This document shows positions 26,577 through 36,945 of a stretch of 37,581 nt of DNA, piece by piece (positions within the stretch are counted from its first letter, which is position 1; every line of letters begins with the position of its first letter). Origin of the DNA: a virus; IMG/VR virus record IMGVR_UViG_3300009104_000053, positions 1 to 37,581 of that record; one strand, given 5' to 3'. Made by a program: the position numbers and the translations under genes. The notes beneath the pieces are model-generated. The model made no database searches and had not been told where the DNA came from. It was given only the letters and a program-made list of their open reading frames with translations.

Positions 26577-26893
26577 AGTGTGTCTGTCTGTGCCTGTGTG
26601 CGAAAGTCCCGATATATATATTTATAATTTATGCACCTTGTTTTTGGGTCATACCCGCCTCACGCGCATTGAAATTCTTTCATTTTTCTACAGTTTTTTG
26701 ATCTTTGGTTATCTCAACCGTAAACTATTGAGATATTGCTTAACTTATTTAATCTTTTAAGTGTGTTGTAAGTGTCATTGGTCCCGGAGCTGTAGCATAT
26801 ATGCTGGATCGTACTCCTTAACGCGTAAGATTTCACTCTGGCGCGCTTATAAAGATACGGAGATTCCAACCAAGTCTAACCAGATACAACTAG

Positions 26894-26916
26894 ATCTATT
26901 CGTATCTATTCGTATC
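26894..26916. repeat. Tandem ATCTATTCGT repeat (2.3 copies)
   Basis: Two exact 10-bp copies plus ATC. Each unit is about one helical turn, so it could place a protein on one face of the DNA just upstream of the candidate terL promoter. Confidence 0.7.
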
Positions 26917-26926
26917 AACCAGGCAC

Positions 26927-26961
26927 AAAAAAACCCAGGAGAGATCTCTCTCTCCCAGGTT
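26927..26961 (-). terminator. Intrinsic terminator after the 112-aa gene
   Basis: On the minus strand AACC, a CA/CA internal loop, GGAGAGA, a TCTC loop region and their complements form a 4+7 bp stem (26961-26932), followed by seven T (26933-26927). It ends the transcript of 26973-27311 and isolates it from the terL operon. Confidence 0.8.
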
Positions 26962-26972
26962 AATATATTTAA

Positions 26973-27311
26973 TTAATTATATTTTAATTTAACTTTTCTT
27001 CTCCATTCACTTGCAAAAGAATTTTCTTTAGTTGGAGTAAGTTTATCAAAAACAGTTTTTTTCATATCATAAAAATATGGTCCAACTGTTTCATCCATTA
27101 TTTTAATAAACACTTCTTTGTTTAAATAATCATATCTAATTAAACCAATTACAGCAATCACTTGATCCTTGTATTTACATGCAGAATATATTGTATATTC
27201 TTTGTCTTCAACATGTTCAATATTAAAATCAATAATTGGCAATGACATATCCATTTTAAACGCATCAACAACTGATGGTTTTTTATTGTATTGAACTGAT
27301 ATTGTACCCAT
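26973..27311 (-). CDS. Unknown accessory protein, DUF6927-like C-terminus, 112 aa
   Basis: The C-terminal half reads DETVGPYFYD (73-82), KTVFDKLTPT, then EWRRK (102-106), recalling the DETxGPxxY...LxPT...EWR pattern of the DUF6927-type mobile-element proteins. That resemblance is from memory and only moderate. Small alpha/beta protein without membrane segments. It has a perfect AAAGGAGGA site, its own TTGACA/TGTCAA promoter-operator region (27356-27375) and its own terminator, i.e. a one-gene moron-like unit. Function unknown. Confidence 0.75.
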   Translation of the reverse strand: MGTISVQYNKKPSVVDAFKMDMSLPIIDFNIEHVEDKEYTIYSACKYKDQVIAVIGLIRYDYLNKEVFIKIMDETVGPYFYDMKKTVFDKLTPTKENSFASEWRRKVKLKYN

Positions 27312-27355: not shown

Positions 27356-27375
27356 TTGACAATATGTCAACCTTA
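27356..27375 (-). promoter_or_regulatory. TTGACA-N3-TGTCAA palindrome (operator/promoter a)
   Basis: A perfect 6-3-6 palindrome TTGACAATATGTCAA (27356-27370) upstream of 26973-27311. On the minus strand it is extended to TAAGGTTGACA, shared with the element before 34863. TTGACA itself equals a sigma-70 -35 box; TATTGA at 17 bp is a poor -10. Best read as a repressor operator overlapping a promoter. Confidence 0.6.
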
Positions 27376-27449
27376 AATATGTTTAAATGCGTATTTTTAT
27401 TTTAGTTAATAAAATAACCTTTTTAATTGTTTTTTATGCTAATAAAAAA

Positions 27450-27475
27450 CCCTGGCAAGATCATCTCCGCCAGGG
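27450..27475 (-). terminator. Intrinsic terminator after the 128/80-aa pair
   Basis: CCCTGGC (27450-27456) pairs with GCCAGGG (27469-27475), 12-nt loop. On the minus strand six T follow (27449-27444). It ends the two-gene transcript starting at 28113. Confidence 0.85.
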
Positions 27476-27487
27476 TCTATAATTTTA

Positions 27488-27730
27488 TTATTTTAAATAT
27501 TTTCCGTATTGCTTTTTTAATGGGTTGTTTTTGTCTGTATATTCTGAATTTAATTGAATTACAGCTCCATTTAAGCAAACCGGCAATTCTCTACTTAAAG
27601 ATCCTCCAAATTGAACCTTTTTTGATGATCCAAAGTAAATATCTATATTACTTGAAAAAATATGAATTAATTGCTCCATATTTTCTAAAGTTAGTTTTTT
27701 TGCAATCTCAACTACTTCTTTATTTGTCAT
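27488..27730 (-). CDS. Unknown accessory protein, 80 aa
   Basis: Start MTNKEVVEIAKKL at 27730, chosen because GGGAGG lies 7 nt upstream and the ATG overlaps the preceding stop as ATGA. A helical N-terminal half (2-30) is followed by a short beta-like middle (FGGSLSRELPVCL) and a basic tail. It forms a two-gene unit with 27727-28113, ended by a terminator. Two coupled small genes under their own operator could be toxin/antitoxin, anti-restriction or superinfection functions, but none is recognised. Confidence 0.7.
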   Translation of the reverse strand: MTNKEVVEIAKKLTLENMEQLIHIFSSNIDIYFGSSKKVQFGGSLSRELPVCLNGAVIQLNSEYTDKNNPLKKQYGKYLK

Positions 27731-28113
27731 TGAGACACCTCCCAATTTTGTTGAGACATTACATAAACATAAAACTCATCTCCTCCTAGAAATTTATGTA
27801 AATCCCAATTATCAAAATGATGAGATTTCAACCTTTTAAGATTTTTAAAAAATCCTAGTATTGCAGCTCTATTGTTGTTTATATTGTACTTACAGCCTTG
27901 TAATTGAAATTTAATCTTTTCAATATGTCTGTTCGGTACATATACAGAGAACCAATTAAAAGCATCATCAAAAAACTTCTTTTTATTTGACTTGCCTGGA
28001 AGAGATTTAAAAGTGAAATATCTCTTTCCTTTGTTCTCCGGTTTATATTTACAACTTACAACATCTTTTCCAGCTATTATAAATTGCTTTGGCTCGTTTA
28101 ATTGTTGATTCAT
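27727..28113 (-). CDS. Unknown accessory protein, 128 aa
   Basis: ATG at 28113 chosen: GGAGG is 9 nt upstream, whereas the longer reading from 28176 would run through a structured leader. Alpha/beta, basic and aromatic protein with KRYFTFKSLPGKSNKKKFFDD (30-49 region), YVPNRHIEKIKF, and DLHKFLGGDEFYVYV. No known family. It is preceded by a 14-bp hairpin leader, a TATAAT box with a TTGACA/TGTCAA operator, and an iteron array; it is coupled to 27488-27730. Confidence 0.75.
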   Translation of the reverse strand: MNQQLNEPKQFIIAGKDVVSCKYKPENKGKRYFTFKSLPGKSNKKKFFDDAFNWFSVYVPNRHIEKIKFQLQGCKYNINNNRAAILGFFKNLKRLKSHHFDNWDLHKFLGGDEFYVYVMSQQNWEVSQ

Positions 28114-28132
28114 ATGTTCAACCTCCTTTATA

Positions 28133-28186
28133 TTGACCCGTTGCGCTATCACTTCGCTTAGAGCAAATCTTCGCACAACGGATCAA
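28133..28186 (-). ncRNA. Structured leader RNA with 14-bp stem before the 128-aa gene
   Basis: Arms 28186-28173 and 28146-28133 pair over 14 bp (two G-U), enclosing 26 nt with an inner 6-bp hairpin (28167-28162 with 28158-28153, 3-nt loop). The stem ends about 10 nt before GGAGG, so folding could gate ribosome access or act as a 5' stabiliser. No T-tract follows, so it is not a terminator. It does not match a riboswitch I know. Confidence 0.6.
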
Positions 28187-28198
28187 TTAAAGAAATAT

Positions 28199-28244
28199 AT
28201 TATAATTGACAATCTGTCAACTATTAATATGGATAGTTGTCAAC
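28199..28244 (-). promoter_or_regulatory. Promoter with TTGACA/TGTCAA operator pair (b)
   Basis: Minus strand: GTTGACAAC (28244-28236), then TTGACAGATTGTCAA (28220-28206, perfect 6-3-6 palindrome), then TATAAT (28204-28199). The palindrome fills the -10 to -35 spacer, so a bound protein would block the polymerase. Sites are 23 bp apart. It drives the pair 28113-27488. Confidence 0.6.
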
Positions 28245-28287
28245 TTTATTTATTAATCCAAATAATACCTATTTTATAATAATTCTA

Positions 28288-28440
28288 ATCTAGCTTTAAT
28301 TAAATGAGACTAGCAATTTTATTCTAGTCTTTATTAAATGAGACTAGCTTTTATATGAGACTAGCAATTTTATGAGACTAGCAAAAATCATCTAGTCTTA
28401 ATTAATTGAAACTAGCAATTATATGAGACTAGCAAAATTA
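28288..28440. repeat. 17-bp iteron array, nine units
   Basis: TGAGACTAGC or its inverse recurs every 17 bp without a gap. Direct units start at 28305, 28339, 28356, 28373, 28407 (TGAAACTAGC) and 28424. Inverted units (CTAGTCTT) lie at 28322 and 28390, with a degenerate one at 28288 (ATCTAGCTTT). Each ends in an A/T-rich 7-mer. The array stands between the end of terS and an A/T-rich operator region. Candidate roles: replication origin, TerS pac site or partition site. Confidence 0.85.
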
Positions 28441-28446
28441 TTGGAT

Positions 28447-28902
28447 CTATTTTACCATTTCATTAGAGTTTGGTATTCTTTTAAAATTCTCCGTTGATAC
28501 CTGGTCCACAATCTCTTTAACCGGTAACATATCTTTTTTCTCATCTGGTCTACCCCATGAAATAGTTAAAGTAGTGTCTGTTTTTTGCTCTATCTTTTGT
28601 TTATCTCCAAATGTAGTAGACAATAATCTACTCGCTAACCATCTAATATGATTATATCTCTCACGCATCCAATGAACTTCTTGCGGTGTTTTTGGAGTAT
28701 CCATATCTTCAGCTATTTTATCAAGTAATGTCCAAACTCCCATTTGTCTTGCATCCATAACTTTCTTTTGTACTTCATCATCAGTTCTACACCATTTATA
28801 TACGGTTGAGACATCCGGCATATTTTTTGATTTACAGATTGTACTTAACGGCTTGCCAAGTTCTAATTGTTTGATGATTTCTCTAATTTGTTTTTGATCC
28901 AT
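28447..28902 (-). CDS. terS: Terminase small subunit-like (Sf6 type), 151 aa
   Basis: The N-terminal HTH (about 8-45: LGKPLSTICKSKNMPDVSTVYKW) and a following helical ring part (DARQMGVWTLLDKI; MRERYNHIRWLASRLL) match Sf6-type small terminases. The C-terminal part is variable as usual. It binds the packaging start and activates TerL. Its 3' end lies 7 bp from the iteron array. Overlaps the upstream HGG gene by 40 nt. Not adjacent to TerL, which is unusual. Confidence 0.8.
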   Translation of the reverse strand: MDQKQIREIIKQLELGKPLSTICKSKNMPDVSTVYKWCRTDDEVQKKVMDARQMGVWTLLDKIAEDMDTPKTPQEVHWMRERYNHIRWLASRLLSTTFGDKQKIEQKTDTTLTISWGRPDEKKDMLPVKEIVDQVSTENFKRIPNSNEMVK

Positions 28903-29141: not shown

Positions 29142-29549
29142 TTAAATTTTGTCTATCTTGTCTATAAGAGATTTATCCAAAATAAATTCTAAATTAATTA
29201 TTGCTTTTATATATCTCCTCTTAATCGTAACTCGATGGCAAGAATACATTTTAGCCAAAGCTACCCAGGAATACTTTCTTGCTCTGGACCAAACTAGCTT
29301 TCTATCCTTTAATTCAACTTTAGGCAGTAAATCAATGGCTAATAGCCAGCAATCAATTTGTTTACTATTAGCTCGTAATTTTAGCTTTTTAGTCGTATTC
29401 CAGTAGCCATAATCCTTTGGCTCATAAGTAATATCCCGTAATATTTTGTACATTGAGGGATTTGTGGGTCTGGGTAAACCTGGCATAAACCGTTCAGCCG
29501 TGCCAGCAGTATCCAAAATATCAATTATTTTAGCAGCTCTTAATTTCAT
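29142..29549 (-). CDS. DUF6362-like HTH protein, 135 aa
   Basis: The C-terminal half has KLVWSRARKYSWVALAKMY (83-101) followed by SCHRVTIKRRYIKAI, a sigma-region-4-like HTH typical of DUF6362-type phage proteins. The N-terminal helix (1-20) and PGLPRPTNP follow the same plan. DNA binding near packaging or replication is likely. The start overlaps the initiator-like gene by 4 nt. Confidence 0.7.
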   Translation of the reverse strand: MKLRAAKIIDILDTAGTAERFMPGLPRPTNPSMYKILRDITYEPKDYGYWNTTKKLKLRANSKQIDCWLLAIDLLPKVELKDRKLVWSRARKYSWVALAKMYSCHRVTIKRRYIKAIINLEFILDKSLIDKIDKI

Positions 29550-30154
29550 GCCACCTTCTCGATGGCATTAAACTTTTTTATAGGTTTATCCTTATTATAT
29601 GATGAAACTATTTTAATAGGTTCCTTCTTAAATGTATGTTTGCGGATTAAATTCCCTTTTTTACTTCTATATTCGACATAATGACCCTCACGACCACATT
29701 CTATATATGTTTCCCCTTCATATTCTATAGATTGTTTAGCAACCCCCCTGTTCGAGAATGCTCTATTATAGTTATTCCTATTATTAGATCTATACTGGTT
29801 ATATATATATGGTTTTATTAATAAGTCTCTTTTAGACACCTCACTGGTCTCTGTGAGAGACTTCACTCTATTTAGCCTTAATTTCTCTAACTCCAACTGT
29901 TGTGTCAATAAATACAAATTAGTCGAAGATAGCCGTTTTATTGTTATTAACTTTTGTTTGGCAAGGTTGGAAATGGCTCGATGAATACTACTACGAGATA
30001 ACCCCGTTTCCTTCTTCAATGTCGCATATCGAGGATAGGCTTTCCCATCCTTTTTACCCATATAACAAACCAGCGCAAAATAAACTATCTTATCAATAGC
30101 TGATAGCTTTTTATTAAATATGATATTTCTATCGCCTACAAAGAATAAACTCAT
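29546..30154 (-). CDS. Winged-helix replication-initiator-like protein, 202 aa
   Basis: Residues 15-75 form a HTH_36-type winged helix: KLSAIDKIVYFAL, YPRYATLKKETGLSRSSIHRAISNL, then KQKLITIKR. Such domains open phage O/RepA-like replication initiators. The rest is basic, with no helicase motifs, so it would recruit host machinery. The iteron array 1.1 kb downstream is a candidate target. It could equally be a transcription regulator. Confidence 0.7.
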   Translation of the reverse strand: MSLFFVGDRNIIFNKKLSAIDKIVYFALVCYMGKKDGKAYPRYATLKKETGLSRSSIHRAISNLAKQKLITIKRLSSTNLYLLTQQLELEKLRLNRVKSLTETSEVSKRDLLIKPYIYNQYRSNNRNNYNRAFSNRGVAKQSIEYEGETYIECGREGHYVEYRSKKGNLIRKHTFKKEPIKIVSSYNKDKPIKKFNAIEKVA

Positions 30155-31112: not shown

Positions 31113-31402
31113 TTAATCACTATCTCCGTAACCTCCTGTACCCAAGCTCCAGGAATAGTGTTTGTATTACCAACAGTTAAAGATCCATCCTCTACATCTA
31201 TTGAATAATCGGCAAAAATTGTAAGTAGTTCTTTTGTTTGAATTAATTTATGACCCTTTGAAATACAAACTGCGGGTTTTAACTTTTTAGCTTTCTCAAC
31301 TGTCATCCAGGAATTATCCGCCAAGGTGTCGAACCACCTAACTTCAACAAATGGATAATCTTCTATGTTGCCAGTTATTTTTTTTTCTTTTTTTCTATTC
31401 AT
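31109..31402 (-). CDS. Conserved phage hypothetical protein, 97 aa
   Basis: The pattern FVEVRWFDTLADNSWMTVEKA (18-37), then ICISKG-type and IFADYS (63-68), IPGAWV (83-88) is a recurrent small phage protein of unknown function (from memory). Beta-rich. It begins 8 nt inside the XRE gene, so it is translated from the same transcript. Confidence 0.7.
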   Translation of the reverse strand: MNRKKEKKITGNIEDYPFVEVRWFDTLADNSWMTVEKAKKLKPAVCISKGHKLIQTKELLTIFADYSIDVEDGSLTVGNTNTIPGAWVQEVTEIVIK

Positions 31403-31592
31403 AAAAGCTAGAAGGTTTGACTTTTCCTTTGGTTTTTTCGGAGATCAGTTTCATAAATTCTGGTCGAGGTATCCTCTCCTTGTTGCACCAACGAAATACA
31501 GTTGATCCAGGAGATGTGCCTTTAATTCCTAAAAATTCAGCTAGCTTTTTATGTGATAGGTTTTTTGATTTTCTAAATGTTTCTAATTGCAT
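31395..31592 (-). CDS. XRE/Cro-type regulator, 65 aa
   Basis: A compact HTH: FRKSKNLSHKKLAEFLGIKG (6-25), a turn, then TVFRWCNKERIPRPEFM as the recognition region. Size equals Cro/CII-like proteins. It is the first gene of the leftward operon and divergent from the exonuclease/integrase transcript, the place of the lysogeny switch. A -10 TATAAG ends 6 nt before the ATG, so the mRNA is probably leaderless. Confidence 0.8.
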   Translation of the reverse strand: MQLETFRKSKNLSHKKLAEFLGIKGTSPGSTVFRWCNKERIPRPEFMKLISEKTKGKVKPSSFYE

Positions 31593-33840: not shown

Positions 33841-34056
33841 ATGCAATATGGCTTAACTGAAAAGCAACTAAAACTTTTTAAGTTTATTAAAAGCTATATT
33901 TCTAAAAAAAACATATCGCCATCTTACGATGAAATGAAGGTGGCGATAGGTGCAAAATCCAAATGTGGTATTGCAGCAAGAATTAAACAATTAGAAGAAA
34001 GAGGATGGATAAAAAAACTACCGGGAAAAGCGAGAAGTATCCAAATAATCCGATAG
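33841..34056 (+). CDS. Lone LexA-type DNA-binding domain, 71 aa
   Basis: The whole protein equals the N-terminal winged helix of LexA: LTEKQLKLFKFIKSYI (5-20), ISPSYDEMKVAIGAKS (25-40), RIKQLEERGWI (47-57), then PGKARSIQI. The S24 autoprotease domain is absent, so it would not be cleaved in SOS. It may compete for or mimic LexA sites or regulate the phage. The next gene overlaps by 52 nt. Confidence 0.8.
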   Translation: MQYGLTEKQLKLFKFIKSYISKKNISPSYDEMKVAIGAKSKCGIAARIKQLEERGWIKKLPGKARSIQIIR

Positions 34057-35769: not shown

Positions 35770-36945
35770 ATGAAATTTTGGTTAAATACAATTAAAGATA
35801 AAAATAAAAAGCCAATCTATTTACAAGTTCAAGGTATCAAAGATGATGGTACTAAATTTGAACAATCAAGATTTGAACTGAACCAAAGACGTAGAGCCAA
35901 AGAATATATTAAAGATTTAAAAGAAGAGGATTATAAATTACCAGAGGTTGAGGTTACATTTGATGATGCTTTTCCAAAATATTATAAATCGGTAAAAAAC
36001 AATGACGACAACCAAGTAGATACAAATAACAGATATAATTCATTATTAAAGGCTCATATCCAGCCGTATATTGATGAAAAGTACCTTTTTCAGTACAAGG
36101 CAAGCACCTTTAAAGACACCCTCTTAAAACGTATTAGAAGCAGTAAAAAGACTAAATGGAAAAAATTTAACGACATTTATCAATTAACTAGACAAAATGA
36201 AGTAATAGATAAAAAGACTGTCAAAGATGCGGTGGCATCCTTTAAAAGATTCATAGTTTGGTGTGATGATAATGGCTGGAAGATAGATCTTAAAATATTA
36301 AGACACAGATTTAGTAAAGCTAAAACTACAACCAAGGTTAAGAAAATAGTTAAATGGGTTCCTAAAAAGGAAAATGTTTTAACTCTAATAAATAGTGAAA
36401 AAAATATTTGTGATAAAACTTTATATAGAGCATCAGCAGAAATAGGTGGAAGATTAAATGAGATGTTGGCTATCTGTTATGATGATGTTTATAAAGATGA
36501 AGAGCTTGGAGTATGGGTTGTTCATATTAGACACTCTTTGGGTCCAGATAATTCCTTTAGACCCGACTACTTAAAAACGGGTAGCTCTGAAAGAAAAATA
36601 GAAATTAGCGAAACATTATTAAAGTATCTCCAATCCTGGATGAAGATACAAATAGCGCCTAAAACTCATCAAAGAAAATACAGAAGATTATTTCCATACA
36701 ATAAAAAATATGCAGCCGATAAAGTTAAAGCTGCCGCTAAAATATTAAATATAGAATGGCTTGGTGGATTTGCACCATTTAGAAAATTCAGTAGTTCCCT
36801 TTTAAAATCTCAAAATGTTTTTACAGAAGAACAATTAGATTTAAGATTTGGTAATACTGAAGAGGTAAGAAAGAAACATTATTATAATGATCTGAATTTG
36901 AACAAAGAAAAGAAAACTGCCACAATTAACAAACTACTAACATAA
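35770..36945 (+). CDS. int: Tyrosine integrase with degenerate box II, 391 aa
   Basis: N-terminal arm-like region (1-60), core-binding (60-185) and catalytic part (about 195-391). Visible: R228 (GGRLNE), K269 (YLKT), R338 (APFRKF), N362 and tyrosine Y371 (or Y372), nine residues on, the usual spacing. The first His of HxxR is replaced by Ala335 and the GH His by Asn362. It would integrate the phage at an attB; no tRNA-like attP is seen in the window. Starts 1 nt after the 54-aa gene. Confidence 0.85.
   Translation: MKFWLNTIKDKNKKPIYLQVQGIKDDGTKFEQSRFELNQRRRAKEYIKDLKEEDYKLPEVEVTFDDAFPKYYKSVKNNDDNQVDTNNRYNSLLKAHIQPYIDEKYLFQYKASTFKDTLLKRIRSSKKTKWKKFNDIYQLTRQNEVIDKKTVKDAVASFKRFIVWCDDNGWKIDLKILRHRFSKAKTTTKVKKIVKWVPKKENVLTLINSEKNICDKTLYRASAEIGGRLNEMLAICYDDVYKDEELGVWVVHIRHSLGPDNSFRPDYLKTGSSERKIEISETLLKYLQSWMKIQIAPKTHQRKYRRLFPYNKKYAADKVKAAAKILNIEWLGGFAPFRKFSSSLLKSQNVFTEEQLDLRFGNTEEVRKKHYYNDLNLNKEKKTATINKLLT

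Follow-up and report, generated by a model that had tools for sequence, protein, structure and literature searches.

A 17-bp-phased, mixed-orientation repeat array beside terS in a SAR11-type ocean phage as a possible operator or insulator of an accessory cassette

Results

The window analyzed here, 37,581 bp long with 32.5% GC, is an entire IMG/VR virus record. It is related to the pelagiphage HTVC010P in its head-tail connector DNA (75%) and TerS, and the phage is a SAR11-type ocean phage. On the minus strand, the gene order is an initiator-like winged-helix protein (Rep, HTH_36; 29546-30154), a DUF6362 protein, gp86, terS, the repeat array, accessory cassettes 1 and 2, a conserved noncoding block, ORF62, and terL. 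The terS gene (28447-28902, minus strand) encodes an Sf6-type small terminase (PF20901, phrog_1482). An HTH_3 protein (31395-31592) and a LexA-like HTH protein (33841-34056) are encoded as well. The order Rep, gp86, TerS, cargo, and TerL, with related proteins, is shared with the HTVC010P group, but the loci of this group that we fetched contain no such array. Since an integrase (phrog_1, 35770-36945) is encoded, the phage is probably temperate. This integrase of an HTVC010P-group phage is 98% identical in the related genome G003, and found no match in the phage collection.

The array (28288-28440, no strand assigned) consists of nine 17-bp slots with A/T-rich spacers in the order I' D I D D D I D' D, where D and I denote direct and inverted units; this position, order, and grid, as described in an earlier note on the sequence, were correct on re-inspection. 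Eight slots contain the 7-mer core AGACTAG in mixed orientation, exact in seven and with one mismatch in the other, and the cores start at 28307 (+), 28324 (-), 28341 (+), 28358 (+), 28375 (+), 28392 (-), 28409 (+, one mismatch), and 28426 (+). Thus, 10-bp spacers separate the 7-bp cores, and the step is exactly 17 bp in all eight slots, whatever their orientation. Slot 1, at the left edge, is a weak match with two mismatches (AAGCTAG). The longer 10-mer, TGAGACTAGC, is found unchanged in five slots and with a single mismatch in slot 8. Contrary to the previous description of every slot as this 10-mer or its inverse, the inverted units have only the 7-mer in common with the direct ones (flanks AA..A versus TG..C); likewise, the exact phase through the inverted units applies to AGACTAG, whereas the 10-mer is shifted there by one base. 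The array adjoins terS with a gap of 6 bp (array end at 28440, terS stop codon at 28447, minus strand) instead of the reported 7 bp, while the distance of about 1.1 kb to the initiator-like gene was as described.

The exact 10-mer occurs five times within 153 bp, as compared with a maximum of 2-3 copies when the whole window was simulated 200 times with a Markov model, and the period-34 autocorrelation of the array reaches a z score of 7.8. The array is thus not a product of chance. It contains a 68-bp tandem duplication on the plus strand, in which slots 2-5 (28305-28372) and slots 6-9 (28373-28440) both read D I D D and are 82% identical. The mismatches between the two copies fall at 1 of 28 core positions and 11 of 40 spacer positions, a modest difference from one genome (Fisher p 0.011), and the D units differ in 5/150 core versus 40/105 spacer comparisons. 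Since the changes between copies lie mostly in the spacers, the cores and their phase seem to be under selection, as for protein-binding sites, a suggestion drawn from copies within the array of the one genome in which it is known.

We then compared the locus with its relatives. Searches with TerL and the initiator yielded 66 loci that keep TerS and ORF62, corresponding to 51 distinct sequences, as some contigs were fetched twice. The earlier note had proposed to look for a conserved array position in related phages; neither this array nor a comparable one was present in any of the 66 loci, and no other array occupied the same place. The gap between TerS and ORF62 ranges from 213 to 1994 bp among the relatives, a variation that marks it as a hypervariable cargo-insertion site. 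The loci L002 and L003 retain the order gp134-Rep-DUF6362-gp86-TerS-ORF62-TerL without the array, with TerS residues 1-68 identical to those of the window and identities of 95% for the initiator, 96% for DUF6362, and 98% for TerL; in L002, the array is nowhere in the record. Similarly, L004, from the genome G003, lacks the array and shares 99% identity in TerL and 91% in the initiator. A further related record, G002 (L112-L115; 69.7 kb), carries several genes at two diverged places, including tail genes and integrase-side genes, and has the appearance of two related phages fused during assembly.

The alignment with L004, the closest relative, delimited a lineage-specific segment (28246-28495, minus strand), made up of the final ~16 terS codons, the array itself, and 42 bp of A/T-rich DNA (88% AT). 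The two sequences are homologous up to about terS codon 136, then part for 250 bp of the window, with 32 bp in their place in L004, before homology returns at 28245, at the operator/promoter of the first cassette, with 90% identity over 52 bp. Because of this break and return, we regard the array as a discrete and apparently recent acquisition or replacement, one that also altered the C-terminus of TerS.

The first cassette operator/promoter (28195-28245, minus strand), which lies 42 bp downstream of the array, contains the dyad TTGACA-N3-TGTCAA at 28206-28220, and its counterpart in L004 begins at the terS stop. It precedes an accessory gene of 128 amino acids counted from ATG (27727-28113, minus strand), found here and there in relatives and also in an unrelated type of phage, and a further accessory gene (27488-27730, minus strand) followed by a terminator (27447-27478). 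The second cassette (26973-27311, minus strand; 112 amino acids) has its own promoter with the same dyad (27356-27370) and a terminator (26932-26961), so that each cassette possesses a dyad promoter and a terminator after it. The exact dyad occurs in the window genome only at these two promoters, and in G003, G005, and G006 only in the TerS-TerL island, while TTACCA-N3-TGGTAA takes the same role in other relatives. The loci listed for the two dyad types among the TerS-TerL cassettes are L101, L104, L057, L064, and L023; and L022, L032, and L039. Such dyads may serve as operators for a repressor, of phage or host origin, that varies from lineage to lineage. In addition, the 5' leader of the first accessory gene forms a strong predicted hairpin (28118-28195, minus strand; -34.7 kcal/mol, z -6.4), which overlaps the ribosome-binding site and pairs with part of the Shine-Dalgarno sequence. 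This hairpin is missing in L004 and L057, and in relatives that share the gene or the promoter, and no match was found among phage records. Structure predictions for the accessory protein and a genome-specific 164-aa protein were of low confidence, too poor for use.

A noncoding block upstream of ORF62-TerL (26577-26931, minus strand) is present in all relatives, and is located directly after terS in phages without cargo. Near its end, the block contains TATATATA..TCGGGACTT..ACACACAGACAC, and its upstream part is GC-rich and hairpin-like. Judged by its conservation, this block is a better packaging or late-control (late-promoter) candidate than the array.

Finally, we searched beyond the relatives. 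Exact-pattern scans of IMG/VR for two tandem units or an inverted pair detected no other such array among the public records, from which those nearly identical to the window's own may be left out, and the matches were mostly isolated pairs. A Blast search against phages and plasmids gave chance matches only, 385 alphaproteobacterial genomes contained no similar array, and a single TerL scan of genome contigs retrieved two Rhodobacteraceae fragments only. Several candidates were rejected: the match in L116 lies within coding sequence, L138 and L167 are unrelated larger phage contigs with a few direct 17-bp repeats and no inverted units, and the direct array in L121, close to an integrase, is a different one. 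The latter array (L121:3460-3640; GACTAGACGGCGAGTTTAT, the contig containing six exact GACTAGACGG cores) is situated between an accessory-gene homologue and a tyrosine integrase of an unrelated phage contig, and possibly represents integrase arm sites. A restriction-decoy role likewise found no support, as the avoidance of CTAG elsewhere in the genome is only mild (76 seen versus 91 expected).

Discussion

The earlier note had offered an origin, a TerS packaging site, or a partition or operator site as alternatives for the array. For the first two, the close relatives that keep the neighboring genes without the array largely argue against the proposal. Array-less phages have almost the same TerS, initiator, and integrase, so these proteins can probably do without the array; a pac site, an origin, and integrase arm sites are all unlikely. 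A packaging site bound by TerS would be in keeping with the location directly after the gene of an Sf6-type TerS, with the segment having also altered the last ~16 TerS codons, and with SPP1, whose pac has direct repeats around terS (PMC4737164). As in SPP1/SF6, the repeats adjoin terS in a phage with a small terminase of the ring-type family; in contrast to the direct repeat boxes at the terS promoters or start in those phages, the array follows terS in mixed orientation, and relatives that share the DNA-binding region of this TerS lack it. Indeed, the identical residues 1-68 of TerS in L002 include this putative region, and it is the noncoding block, and not the array, that all relatives conserve between terS and terL, making a pac site improbable; the SF6 TerS DNA-binding domain itself shows little specificity for the pac repeats (PMC4737164). 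An iteron-type origin bound by the HTH_36 protein holds out equally little promise. Short phased repeats beside A/T-rich DNA, 1.1 kb from an initiator-like gene, do recall the iteron origins of theta plasmids and phages, but these usually consist of direct repeats only, whereas the array is mixed in orientation and is not kept with a nearly identical initiator, whose winged helix is almost unchanged in the array-less L002 and L004. Furthermore, there is no GC-skew turn at the array, the turn being at a divergent promoter near 31.6 kb, although this is a weak test, as the skew follows transcription.

A centromere-like partition site, or arm-type sites of the integrase, would be the readings that we regard as highly improbable. 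The parS of pSM19035 consists of 7-bp heptads, direct and inverted in exact phase, of which several contiguous units are needed for function and which bind ParB dimers cooperatively (PMC9499535). The array resembles this omega/ParB-bound site in its 7-bp units, both orientations, and exact phase, but differs in its 17-bp period, 10-bp A/T-rich spacers, and sequence from the contiguous heptads with their 7-bp period. Moreover, pSM19035 has cognate Par genes, whereas no gene for a ribbon-helix-helix ParB-like protein or ParA, partition ATPase, or adaptor was recognized among the window proteins scanned against Pfam and PHROGs, a scan that small divergent ones could escape. The parS of pSM19035 is the nearest working analogue, and no described family is assigned to the array. 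As for arm sites, the genome does encode an integrase, but its gene lies 7.3 kb from the array and is nearly unchanged in the array-less G003. An RNA element, in which the minus-strand transcript would form a long imperfect hairpin after terS for mRNA processing, attenuation, or 3'-end protection, is also of low probability. The predicted fold (-36.7 kcal/mol, z -3.1), with 41-nt arms that are 76% complementary, is what any mixed-orientation array would give, and the z score comes from shuffles that ignore such folding, whereas the exact 17-bp phase and the conservation of cores over spacers are properties of DNA sites. Repeat DNA without function, as an expanded minisatellite or the remnant of a small mobile element, is doubtful but deserves somewhat more weight. 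The array occurs in a single genome within a recent 250-bp insertion, and the 68-bp tandem duplication demonstrates that expansion does occur; on the other hand, slippage alone gives no inverted units on the same grid, and the changes are concentrated in the spacers. A MITE or other mobile element was not borne out, as the best terminal inverted repeat at the segment ends was matched by 678 of 5000 shuffles, which is not significant, and no target duplication was seen by eye.

Of the former pair of partition and operator site, an operator-type site of the accessory cassette is the more probable. We favor, at a probability of roughly 40%, the control of this cassette by an operator or insulator array that is cooperative and specific to the lineage, because the cores are more conserved than the spacers and the array lies just upstream of the cassette promoter with its operator-like dyad. 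The discrete insertion of the segment between terS and this promoter, and the relatives that have the same core genes without the array, are also consistent with such a role. A ~250-bp segment would have been acquired at the junction of terS and the first accessory cassette, in the TerS-TerL cargo island, and a sequence-specific, probably cooperative DNA-binding protein would occupy the phased 7-bp sites and spread along the array. The bound array may then repress the cassette, insulate it against read-through from terS, or modulate its promoter; we infer here the binding of a protein, its cooperativity, and the cassette as the target. As the core proteins of this phage and of phages without the array are almost the same, we favor as the putative binder a factor that comes from the host or is encoded by the cargo. 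Several observations count against the operator or insulator role. Cassettes of a similar kind, with an operator of the same type, stand without an array in L004, L057, and L064, so that the array is not needed for expressing such genes, and homologues of the accessory gene likewise have no array upstream. In addition, no regulator gene specific to the window genome was recognized, the models of the two genome-specific proteins being of low confidence.

It is also conceivable, though rather unlikely, that the array represents a type of phage cis-element not described before: one that was acquired, keeps its 17-bp phase while tolerating either orientation of its units, and would nucleate the assembly of a host or cargo protein, to insulate, silence, or titrate at the point of cargo insertion in a phage group that ranks among the most abundant in the ocean. 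Taken from the comparison of related genomes, the array is probably an optional, recent, switch-like site rather than an origin or packaging site. A striking iteron-like array beside terS is thus not necessarily either of these, and the comparison with close relatives, which makes both unlikely, directs attention to the conserved noncoding block at another site. Should the array be regulatory, it would mark how an abundant group of marine phages controls the interchangeable cargo genes between its terminase subunits.
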